This document shows positions 8,929 to 16,415 of a stretch of DNA of 33,163 nt, piece by piece. This stretch comes from an uncultured Prevotellaceae bacterium (GTDB taxonomy: Bacteria; Bacteroidota; Bacteroidia; Bacteroidales; Bacteroidaceae). Below the pieces are notes generated by a model. It was not told where the DNA came from. It searched no databases and was given only the letters and a program-made list of their open reading frames with translations. Location of the stretch: contig CAMOPD010000004.1 in NCBI GenBank assembly GCA_946622085.1, positions 1 through 33,163 of the forward strand, given 5' to 3'. Position 1 is the stretch's first letter. Each line of letters starts with the position of its first letter. Position numbers and translations under genes: made by a program.

Positions 8929-9903
8929 GTGAAGCGGCAGAAAAGATTTCAAAACCGAGTGGCAGAGAGCAAGTTTGCCTTGCCGTTGATGCTCGTCTAT
9001 ACGGTGCTGGTGTGGCTGGCTGGAGGGTTGCTCCATGATGTAGACTTCCGGCTGCCCCTCCAGATAGGGCCCCTCTGGGTGCCCTTTCTTTGCATGCTGT
9101 TGTCGGCTCTGCTGATGGCCGAGCTCAACAACATCAATGCGCTTATCCGCATCTATAGCCGCATGGTGTCGTGCTCGTTTCTTGCCCTCACCTGCATGGC
9201 CGCCTTCCTTTTCCCCTCGCTTCAGGGAGCCATAGCCCAGTTGTGCTTCATTGCCTTCTACATCTGTCTTTTCCACACCTATCAGGACAAGGGAGCCGTG
9301 GGGTGGGCGTTCTATGCCTTTTTCTGTCTCGGCATGGCCAGCACCGTGTTTGTGCACATCCTTTTCTTCCTGCCTTTTGTGTGGTATGTCATGGCGCGCT
9401 ATCTGATGACGCTCAGCTGGCGCACGTTCTGGGCTTCGGTCATAGGCATCGTTGCTCCTTATTGGTTTGTGGTGGTCTATTATCTCTTTACCGACAATCT
9501 GATGGGCTTTGCGCGTCATTTCATGCCGTTGGCCCAGTTTGAGCCACTTTTTGTCTTCGCCCAGGTGGGCGAGCACCGCATCGTCACCTTCTTCTTCATC
9601 GTCTTGCTGGCTTTTGTGGGGATGATTCACTTCTGGCGCAACAGCTTCTACGACAAGATTCGCACGCGCATGCTCTTCAATACGTTCATCATGATGGATC
9701 TGCTCGCCATGATTTTCATCGTCTTGCAGCCGCAGCATAGCGACGTCTTGCTGAAATTCATGATTGTGAATACGGCCCCACTCATCGGCCATTTCATAGC
9801 CCTTACCCGCACCCGCATCACCAATGTGGCATTTTGCGTGATGCTGCTGGTCACGCTATTCCTCACGCTCTATAATCTATGGATACCCTCATTGATTTAC
9901 TGA
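8929..9903 (+). CDS. Multi-pass membrane protein of unknown function
   Basis: 324-aa ORF with GTG start and several hydrophobic helices. It ends 25 bp inside the next ORF, and no recognisable catalytic motif was seen. Confidence 0.75.
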   Translation: MKRQKRFQNRVAESKFALPLMLVYTVLVWLAGGLLHDVDFRLPLQIGPLWVPFLCMLLSALLMAELNNINALIRIYSRMVSCSFLALTCMAAFLFPSLQGAIAQLCFIAFYICLFHTYQDKGAVGWAFYAFFCLGMASTVFVHILFFLPFVWYVMARYLMTLSWRTFWASVIGIVAPYWFVVVYYLFTDNLMGFARHFMPLAQFEPLFVFAQVGEHRIVTFFFIVLLAFVGMIHFWRNSFYDKIRTRMLFNTFIMMDLLAMIFIVLQPQHSDVLLKFMIVNTAPLIGHFIALTRTRITNVAFCVMLLVTLFLTLYNLWIPSLIY

Positions 9904-13352: not shown

Positions 13353-14190
13353 GGGCGCGCCACGTCACCCTCGGCCCCAGCTCGGGCCGGTCGTCGCGAT
13401 AGTAGTTCTGGGGCATCTCCACGTCGTCGCGAACGTCTTTGTCGCGGCGGTATTCGCGGTCCAGCGTGTCGGGGGCATATTCCAGGTGGCCCGTGATGAA
13501 GAACTCCCTTCCGCCGCGCGCCATCACCATGCTCACCCCGCTCTCCTCGCCCTCGGCCAGGATGGTGAGCTCGCCGTGGGCGGCAATGTCGGCCCTGTGC
13601 ACCTCGGTATGTCGGCTGTGCGGCATGCAGAAAGTGTCGTCGAAACCGCGGAAGATGGGCAGTGTGGGCAGCAGCGCCCGCTGCTCAAAGATGCCGAACT
13701 TCTTCTTCTCCAGCGGGTATTTCGGAATGCCATAATAGTAGTACAGACCCGCCTGAGCCGCCCAGCAGATGTAGAGCGTGCTCGTCACGTGGGTCTTGGC
13801 CCAGTCGAATATCTGGCGCATCTCGTCCCAGTAGGTCACCTCCTCAAACGCCATCTGCTCCACGGGTGCGCCCGTGATGATCATCCCGTCGAACTTCTGC
13901 CGGCGCAGTTCGGCAAAATCCTTGTAGAACATCATCATGTGCTCTATCGGCGTGTTCTTGGGCGTGTGGCTCTTCAGCTTCATGAAGTAGATCTCCAGCT
14001 GCAGCGGCGTGTTGGAGAGCAGCCTGATGAGGTCGGTCTCGGTGGTAATCTTCAGCGGCATGAGGTTCAGGATGACAATCTTCAGCGGGCGAATGTCCTG
14101 CGTGGTGGCCCGCGAATGGTCCATCACGAAGATGTTCTCATGCTTCAGCAGCTCAATGGCCGGCAACCGGTCGGGTAGTCTTAGTGGCAT
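13273..14190 (-). CDS. metA: Homoserine O-succinyl/acetyltransferase
   Basis: MPLRLPDRLPAIELLKHENIFVMDHSRATTQDIRPLKIVILNLMPLKITTETDLIRLLSNTPLQ...MIITGAPVEQMAFEEVTYWDE...STLYICWAAQAGLYYYYGIPKY is diagnostic of MetA. Confidence 0.97.
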   Translation of the reverse strand: MPLRLPDRLPAIELLKHENIFVMDHSRATTQDIRPLKIVILNLMPLKITTETDLIRLLSNTPLQLEIYFMKLKSHTPKNTPIEHMMMFYKDFAELRRQKFDGMIITGAPVEQMAFEEVTYWDEMRQIFDWAKTHVTSTLYICWAAQAGLYYYYGIPKYPLEKKKFGIFEQRALLPTLPIFRGFDDTFCMPHSRHTEVHRADIAAHGELTILAEGEESGVSMVMARGGREFFITGHLEYAPDTLDREYRRDKDVRDDVEMPQNYYRDDRPELGPRVTWRAHANLLYNNWINYYVYQETPYNIDDIR

Positions 14191-14516: not shown

Positions 14517-14757
14517 ATAAAGGCTTCTCCCTGCCAGGAAAAGTCAAGCGAGCGGGCTGCAAAAACTAAAATCACGACGTGATTCCATGGAATCACGCCA
14601 CGATTCCATAAAATCACGTCACGATTCCATGGAATCACGTCGTGATTTTAGTTTTTCCACGTCGCTCTCTATGTTTTTTCCCGCCTCTGGTGATAGTTGT
14701 GTGCCTTGCCCGCTTTCTTTACCGGGAAACTCTTTGGAAAGCCGCTCGGCGGCATCG
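14517..14757. repeat. Copy 2 of dispersed ~240-bp element (family B) with a 4 x 21-bp palindromic-array core
   Basis: Core 14561-14656: aaaaactaaaatcacgacgtgattccat ... atggaatcacgtcgtgattttagttttt form perfect 28-bp inverted ends around four 21-bp units. Flanks ataaaggcttctccctgcc and ctctggtgatagttgtgtgccttgcccg match copy 1 in the same orientation. Confidence 0.9.
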
Positions 14758-15140: not shown

Positions 15141-15264
15141 AAACAAAAAACCAAGAATGTTTCGCAACATCCTTGGCTCGTTTCTAACTAACTTATTATC
15201 AACTATTCATTACTCTTACGTTGCTTTATGATTTTACAAATGTGTCTGATTGTGAGCAATTTTC
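15141..15264 (-). ncRNA. Candidate orphan small RNA (~125 nt), minus strand
   Basis: Minus-strand promoter-like ATTG-N20-TAATTTTG (15302-15271). At the 3' end is a hairpin ccaaggatgtt-gcga-aacattcttgg (15176-15151) followed by TTTTTTGTTT. No ORF of note, and the next minus-strand gene starts about 950 bp away. Confidence 0.5.
15151..15176 (-). terminator. Rho-independent terminator, minus-strand reading
   Basis: 11-bp stem with one G-T type mismatch and a 4-nt loop. The minus strand continues into TTTTTTGTTTTC. Confidence 0.7.
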
Positions 15265-15322
15265 TGTGTGCAAAATTACTCGTTTCCACACGTTCGGGCA
15301 ATAAAAAAGATGAAAAAAAACA

Positions 15323-15361
15323 CGTAAACGTTTGCGAAACGCCGAAAAATGATTACTTTTG
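15323..15361 (+). promoter_or_regulatory. Promoter plus LacI-type operator of the LacI-family gene
   Basis: CGTAAACGTTTGCG palindrome (15323-15336) contains TTTG (15331-15334). 19 nt later is TACTTTTG (15354-15361), matching the Bacteroidetes -33/-7 pattern. Confidence 0.7.
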
Positions 15362-15389: not shown

Positions 15390-16415
15390 ATGGCTAACCG
15401 CAGACGTACTTCCTTGAAAGATTTAGCAGAAGAGCTGGGGGTGAGCATTGCGACGGTGTCGCGTGCGCTGAGAAACAGCCATGAGGTGGGTGCTGACATG
15501 AAGCAGAAAGTGCAGGCGCTTGCCAAGAAGCTGAACTATCGGCCTAACCCCTTCGCCCAGAGCCTGCGTCGCGAGGCGCCGCGGATGATAGGCGTGGTGG
15601 TTCCCAATCTGGTGACCCACTACTATGCTGCGGTGCTCGACGGCATTGAGGAGACGGCTCGCAAGGCGGGCTATTCGGTGATCAGTGCCAACAGCCATGA
15701 GGATCATGTGCGCGAAGAGGCGGCAGTAGACAATTTCGTCAGTCTGCACGTGGAGGGCATCATTGCCTGTCTGGCACAAGACACGGTGGACTATTCTCAT
15801 TTCGTTGAGATCAACGATATGGGCATTCCGCTGGTTTTCTTCGCGCGTACGTGTCTGCCGGAGCTCTTCTCGTCGGTGACGGCCAACGGCGACGAGGCCG
15901 CCCAGCGGGCCACCGACCATCTGATAGACACAGGCAGCCGCCGCGTGGCCTTCATTGGCGGGCCCAACCATCTTGACATGGTGCGCCGCAGGAAGCATGG
16001 CTATCTGGAGTCGCTGCGCGAGCATGGCATAAGCATCGACCGCACGCTCGTGGTGTGCGGCAAGATAGACTACGACGTGGCCAAGGAGGCCACCGTCCGT
16101 CTGCTCAGCCGCGACGACCGCCCCGACGCCATACTGGCCTTCAACGACATCATCACCTATGCTGCCTTCGACGCCATCAAGGACATGGGGCTGCGCATAC
16201 CGCAGGACGTGGCCATCATAGGATTTACCGAGGGCAACACGTCGGCATTCGTCACTCCCAGGCTGACGGCCATCATGGACCAGTCGTTCCTCACGGGCCA
16301 GAAGGCATGCGAGTTGTTGCTCAGGAATATTCAGGGCGACAAGCGTATATATAAAGAGGTGGTGCCAATGACGCTGAAGATAAGGGAAAGCTCAGACAAG
16401 GGGAGAGGAAAGTGA
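15390..16415 (+). CDS. LacI/GalR family transcriptional regulator
   Basis: N-terminal HTH TSLKDLAEELGVSIATVSRALRNSHEVGADMKQKVQALAKKLNYRPNPFAQSLR, followed by a periplasmic-binding-like domain. Confidence 0.97.
   Translation: MANRRRTSLKDLAEELGVSIATVSRALRNSHEVGADMKQKVQALAKKLNYRPNPFAQSLRREAPRMIGVVVPNLVTHYYAAVLDGIEETARKAGYSVISANSHEDHVREEAAVDNFVSLHVEGIIACLAQDTVDYSHFVEINDMGIPLVFFARTCLPELFSSVTANGDEAAQRATDHLIDTGSRRVAFIGGPNHLDMVRRRKHGYLESLREHGISIDRTLVVCGKIDYDVAKEATVRLLSRDDRPDAILAFNDIITYAAFDAIKDMGLRIPQDVAIIGFTEGNTSAFVTPRLTAIMDQSFLTGQKACELLLRNIQGDKRIYKEVVPMTLKIRESSDKGRGK

Follow-up and report, generated by a model that had tools for sequence, protein, structure and literature searches.

Between the gene of a LacI-family regulator and the next gene on the opposite strand, the DNA of an uncultured Prevotellaceae bacterium carries what looks like a promoter and a terminator with hardly anything translatable in between. 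The questions addressed here are what kind of element this is, what controls it and on what it acts, based on a stretch of 33,163 nucleotides (the window) and its counterparts in relatives. The reading that we favour, and consider fairly likely as a whole, is that of a trans-acting base-pairing sRNA, about 87 nt long in most species and about 122 nt here, which the divergent LacI-family regulator would control via one palindrome between both genes. Such an sRNA would be made together with pectin genes and would repress mRNAs for glycan use. Prevotella is a dominant genus of the rumen and of fibre-fed guts, and glycan priority is usually framed there as a matter of transcription. If true, the model would add RNA as a further, conserved layer of control, whose regulator can be named and whose targets can be tested.

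Anatomy and conservation of the sRNA gene

The predicted sRNA transcript occupies positions 15141..15266 of the minus strand (about 122-126 nt); promoter and terminator were read in the sequence, the start was placed about 5 nt past the -7 box and the end was set within the T-run. On the same strand, the upstream promoter element ATTG (15302-15299) lies 20 nt ahead of the -7 box TAATTTTG (15278-15271), which follows the Bacteroidota motif TAnnTTTG. The transcript would end with an intrinsic terminator hairpin of 11 bp, CCAAGGATGTT-GCGA-AACATTCTTGG (15176-15151, minus strand), with a GNRA loop and the apex TGTT-GCGA-AACA, followed by the T-tract TTTTTTGTTT (15150-15141, minus strand). All these elements had been named in a preliminary description of the locus and were present where it placed them. 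The same is true for the lack of a useful ORF in the leader (the sole ATG reads M-N-S-stop) and for the lack of a downstream minus-strand gene over about 950 bp, the next one being metA (homoserine O-succinyltransferase, start at 14190). By sequence, the sRNA has its own promoter, an intrinsic terminator and a free-standing gene. Taken alone, however, promoter and hairpin are weak evidence. Terminator-like sites number 8 in the 4-kb neighbourhood compared to 3.8 +/- 2.4 in shuffles, and with a z of -1.66 the fold of the transcript is only mildly stable. It is the comparison with relatives that lifts the sRNA above chance.

A DNA search (E<=0.001) with the 301-bp locus as query gave matches in 104 of 200 genus genomes, a part of which cover the lacI-promoter portion alone. 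The sRNA core was found in at least 118 contigs of the named collection; the titles of those listed are nearly all Prevotella or Prevotellaceae, Xylanibacter caecicola included. Cultured strains are among the carriers, namely Prevotella pectinovora P4-76, Prevotella sp. khp7 and Xylanibacter caecicola PCHR. Broad use in Prevotella, initially offered as the second of two possibilities, is hereby supported. In the viral contigs searched the core was absent, and viral dissemination was rejected.

The conserved core GAGTAATGAATAGTTGATAATAAGTTAGTTAG (15184..15215, minus strand) comprises 32 nt and is the proposed seed region. It is near-constant in the recovered Prevotella loci and its flanking sequence diverges. 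Alignment of 72 homologs gave 28 invariant columns in a row within the core, and in the set recovered by a 13-mer it is identical over 34 nt in 16/20 loci, the remainder varying at the edges only; for some loci, this invariance is partly due to recovery by exact patterns. In predicted folds the core is only partly unpaired (mean 0.55). The window's copy has a longer leader than its homologs, the median predicted length of which is 87 nt.

The terminator behaves differently from the core, as it changes in a coordinated manner. Compensatory changes were detected in 11 of the 13 pairs of its stem, with 95% paired cells in the alignment and both sides changed in 215 cells versus 62 in shuffles. 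None of 500 shuffles reached this number, and sliding the partner by one base collapses the signal. The apex is kept as TGTY-GNGA-RACA across homologs. The unchanged core and the covarying terminator across Prevotella point to a genuine sRNA gene, as had been proposed from the window alone. A scan of the sRNA against Rfam yielded no family at gathering scores. Relaxing the threshold to E<=5 brought up only implausible models (microRNA, snoRNA), with no match to FopS/GibS. Between sRNA and metA, at 14570-14647 of the window, a nested inverted repeat (AATCACGACGTGATTCCATGGAATCACG...) forms a hairpin on both strands; Rfam microRNA matches at this site were dismissed as products of the inverted repeat rather than homology.

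The LacI partner, its putative operator and its proposed regulon

Opposite to the sRNA, a LacI-family regulator of 341 aa is encoded (15390..16415, plus strand), with the DNA-binding and the sugar-binding domain both present (Pfam LacI and Peripla_BP_3). Its ortholog is 68-100% identical and lies divergently, within less than 600 bp, in 127 of the 146 unique sRNA loci, with the contig cut off in 9 more, so that the divergent arrangement first noticed in the window extends to the relatives. The ortholog occurs in 45/47 sRNA-bearing genomes (Fisher p = 5e-14), while 2 genomes possess the sRNA without it. Conversely, the exact core is missing in 13/58 LacI-bearing genomes. Of these 13, 7 were read and 6 have kept the operator at their lacI promoter; regulator and autoregulation may therefore predate the sRNA.

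Genes beyond LacI and beyond the sRNA vary from locus to locus in relatives. Judged by sequence comparison, the conserved unit is the sRNA with the divergent LacI gene and not the sRNA with a PUL. In the window, a PUL is indeed nearby, as is the case for PUL-associated sRNAs, and the preliminary description had assigned the sRNA to it, overlooking LacI as the conserved partner, the fixed-spacing operator and the pectin/hexuronate regulon. While its free-standing, LacI-divergent Prevotella sRNA stands, the link to the PUL does not: PUL linkage is not conserved, exact complements to the core in the start regions of the window's PUL do not exceed 6 nt, and the exact operator was found neither a second time in the own genome (a draft, 73% complete) nor ahead of the adjacent PUL. 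Consequently, this PUL was discarded as sRNA target and as LacI-regulated, and looks like an accidental neighbour.

The predicted LacI-type palindromic operator, CGTAAACGTTTGCG / CGCAAACGTTTACG (15323..15336, unstranded), was found in 136 loci, with 8 of its 14 positions invariant. As CGCAAACGTTTACG it touches the lacI promoter, whose -7 box TACTTTTG (15354..15361, plus strand) is 17 bp away; the lacI box (CAAAnnTA) lies at 17-18 bp in 122/136 loci. LacI on the palindrome would overlap the upstream element of this promoter, which is expected to lead to autoregulation. Toward the sRNA, the distance between operator end and -7 box end is 52 bp in 100 of the 136 loci, 53 bp in 10, 50-51 bp in 7 and 61-63 bp in 17, and for this stretch the length is conserved, the sequence is not. 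In the window it is exactly 52 bp despite the unusually long leader, and thus the promoter recognised in the preliminary description is independently supported.

In a genus-wide search, the operator followed after 43-55 free bases by TAnnTTTG was found in 137/200 genomes, and a reversed-pattern control gave isolated matches only. Such promoters, part of which may belong to LacI paralogs, number 2.98 per genome in LacI carriers versus 0.74 in non-carriers (p = 2e-11). Among the 150 distances listed, 77 are at 51-53 bp, 69 at 61-63 bp and 4 between. Both preferred distances are roughly one helical turn apart, which would fit contact activation at about -65 and about -75. At the sRNA, the LacI site would then precede the transcript start by about 65 bp and keep a constant helical phase, as is typical of an activator contacting RNA polymerase.

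One might argue instead that, without sugar, LacI keeps the sRNA and the pectin genes repressed, that the sRNA appears on release and that the spacing is unrelated to activation. LacI-family proteins are mostly repressors, and the closeness of the operator to the lacI promoter points in the same direction. However, with the operator centre about 65 or 75 bp ahead of the start, the polymerase should not be obstructed, and a spacing that keeps to 52 or 61-63 bp although the sequence it spans is not conserved is in line with contact activation. Repression is thus unlikely in our view, and activation is the reading that we retain. LacI-type activation in Bacteroidota would accordingly follow a precise promoter grammar, usable for reading regulons genus-wide.

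Elsewhere in the own genome, a one-mismatch operator (L416, C75, near 1913) is situated 52 bp before the TATCTTTG box of an 80-aa ORF (MAKTFVIGDRVKDEW...) that adjoins phosphoglycerate kinase. In addition, a paralog of LacI lies divergently to a SusC gene (L414, C19), with two operator-like sites at 9723 and 9803, 80 bp apart.

In relatives carrying the LacI ortholog, 20 promoters of operator geometry were read, and operators were found to precede hexuronate and pectin catabolic genes. Downstream of such promoters are genes for glucuronate isomerase (UxaC, 658 bits), tagaturonate reductase (598 bits, cut-off 359), MFS transporters of galactonate-type resemblance (below the NCBIfam cut-off), two pectinesterases, a Pel9A-like beta-helix protein and SusC. 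Outsiders are few, namely an enoyl-ACP reductase-like protein and TrmO. This regulon suggests that LacI in the window regulates pectin/hexuronate use. Since it would also serve these genes, the sRNA would be made together with them, and the predicted signal, if the model is true, would be galacturonate, glucuronate or a derivative. In Bacteroides, the LacI-family regulators UxaR, UxuR and KdgR are connected to galacturonate and glucuronate use genes (PMC3878776, PMC4052901). The protein family and the galacturonate/glucuronate genes in the regulon are shared with the Prevotella unit. A term search of the LacI regulon paper (PMC4052901) found no sRNA named.

Three of the 20 promoters lead into a second, different sRNA-like unit (L434, about 173-375; L435; L436). 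It shows operator geometry at 61 bp with a TTGATTTATATCAA box before the -7 box, a shared ACTACATAA...CAAACTGCTGAAACATT and a GC-rich terminator, and gave no match in Rfam.

Candidate targets and comparison with known systems

According to the favoured model, the core would pair with mRNAs for exported proteins of glycan use (SusC, GH5, GH97, esterases) in the region where translation starts, and this pairing would repress them and so set a priority among glycans. In the own genome, the 13-mer TTATCAACTATTC has one further exact copy besides the sRNA, 24 nt upstream of the start codon of a gene whose product is exported and has BspA-type leucine-rich repeats. Sites of the core-complementary 13-mers TTATCAACTATTC and AACTTATTATCAA outside the sRNA were then collected from 100 genomes and called start-proximal if the ATG of an ORF of >=60 codons was found at -20 to +45 from the site, with no long upstream open frame. 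For both 13-mers, 17/35 sites are start-proximal in sRNA carriers versus 2/31 in other genomes (p = 1.3e-4), with the window of proximity picked once the sites of the first 13-mer had been viewed. The second 13-mer alone, looked at once the idea existed, gave 9/20 versus 1/20 (p = 0.004), and shuffled 13-mers gave 1/49 (1.2 Mb). Thus the core is complementary to the start regions of several mRNAs. By Pfam, the genes concerned encode SusC, a CarboxypepD-type protein, GH97, GH5, BD-FAE esterase-type, glucuronyl-esterase-type, outer-membrane barrel and BspA-type proteins, and the predicted duplexes range from -17 to -31 kcal/mol. However, genome-wide duplex energies over 825 start regions (1.2 Mb, one complete relative) showed no excess over shuffled cores. 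Also, sRNA-bearing genomes contain hardly more complementary 13-mers in raw count, the difference being one of position only. Consequently, targets are probably few per genome and vary among species. A looser pattern, 11-mer plus ATGA, was dropped for insufficient specificity.

The missing genome-wide pairing signal would also be expected if the sRNA were real and LacI-controlled and its core bound a protein and no mRNA. One candidate would be an RRM protein such as RbpB, which the repeated UAG/UUAG motifs would titrate. A run of 28 consecutive invariant nucleotides exceeds the need of a short seed, and for RbpB of B. thetaiotaomicron, binding to about 60 sRNAs and to AU-rich sites is described (PMC11697453). 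However, titration does not predict core complements at start codons specifically in sRNA-bearing genomes, and we consider protein binding in place of pairing rather improbable. Base pairing with mRNAs remains our preferred mode of action.

The closest parallels are FopS and GibS of B. thetaiotaomicron, which consist of an unstructured conserved 5' part and a 3' terminator, repress SusC and glycan genes at start codons and, in the case of FopS, are antagonised by RbpB (PMC11697453, PMC7366714). The Prevotella sRNA resembles them in its sigma-ABfr-type promoter, its AU-rich conserved 5' part, its 3' intrinsic terminator and the pairing predicted for it near the start codons of mRNAs encoding SusC and glycoside hydrolases. 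By analogy, it most likely works in a FopS/GibS-like manner, repressing the translation of other glycan systems. There are differences as well: FopS has 14 paralogs, while the own genome holds one strong copy of the Prevotella sRNA; GibS carries the PM2 promoter motif; and neither of the two is described as LacI-divergent. A Rfam scan of 400 kb of a 4.6-Mb genome of another genus found no FopS match, and Rfam may hold no FopS model. Since the multicopy feature is lacking, we do not claim membership in the FopS family.

In its wiring, the Prevotella unit is reminiscent of SgrR-SgrS of enterobacteria, where a dedicated regulator gene is divergent from the sRNA that it controls, and where SgrS limits sugar-uptake proteins. 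The Prevotella sRNA appears tied to its divergent LacI regulator as SgrS is to SgrR. In contrast, a LacI-family protein takes the place of SgrR, no sequence relation is expected and the predicted targets are PUL-type genes. Probably, the sRNA is switched on with the pectin-sugar genes and blocks the synthesis of other polysaccharide-uptake proteins. One might go further and speculate that a LacI pectin/hexuronate activator silences the translation of competing glycan systems by way of an ultra-conserved sRNA, joined in some species by an unrelated second one, which would constitute a hard-wired glycan-priority switch of transcription factor plus sRNA in Prevotella. This wider reading, second sRNA included, is tentative, and we rate its chances slightly below even.

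Remaining readings and related elements

The preliminary description had also allowed for the hairpin being the terminator of a distant minus-strand gene in relatives. It is very improbable that the element merely belongs to another transcript, as its 3' end, leader or terminator, or that it is a site acting at the DNA level. Although a hairpin by itself is not rare in this neighbourhood, the unit of promoter, core and terminator is free-standing in 146 unique loci; the upstream gene is divergent there, the downstream genes vary and are often convergent, and the covariation acts at the RNA level. A micro-peptide (MNS or MSNE), suggested by short ATG frames in the core, can practically be dismissed, as stops occur inside the core in all three frames, the first ATG is not conserved (it is missing in the window and several relatives) and the invariant nucleotides include third positions.

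Concerning the limits of the family, strong matches of a covariance search are almost confined to the genus, and weak ones are mostly terminator-like alone. The exception comes from another genus of the family, where an sRNA of related appearance (L218, L221, L228, L232) comprises AAATAGGTTAATAATTAGTTAGTTAG and a terminator with a GTGA loop. The promoters in front of it are GTAACTTTGCACCAGAAAA-like, and neither a LacI ortholog nor an operator was found beside these four copies. The own genome holds a single strong copy of the sRNA, its further matches being weak, and second copies are occasional in other genomes (L086, L079). One of them is a paralogous sRNA (L079:486-573, minus strand, G035) with a shortened core directly after its own promoter and with a terminator, yet without operator. 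In a 4.6-Mb genome of another genus (G360), a dispersed repeat around GTGCTAGATTGCTAGATCA with inverted copies was observed (L439, L443, L450, L454). Finally, the core is partially duplicated in tandem (GAGTAATGAATAGTTGATTGAGTAATGAATAGTTGATAATAAG) at one locus, near position 5225 of L201.
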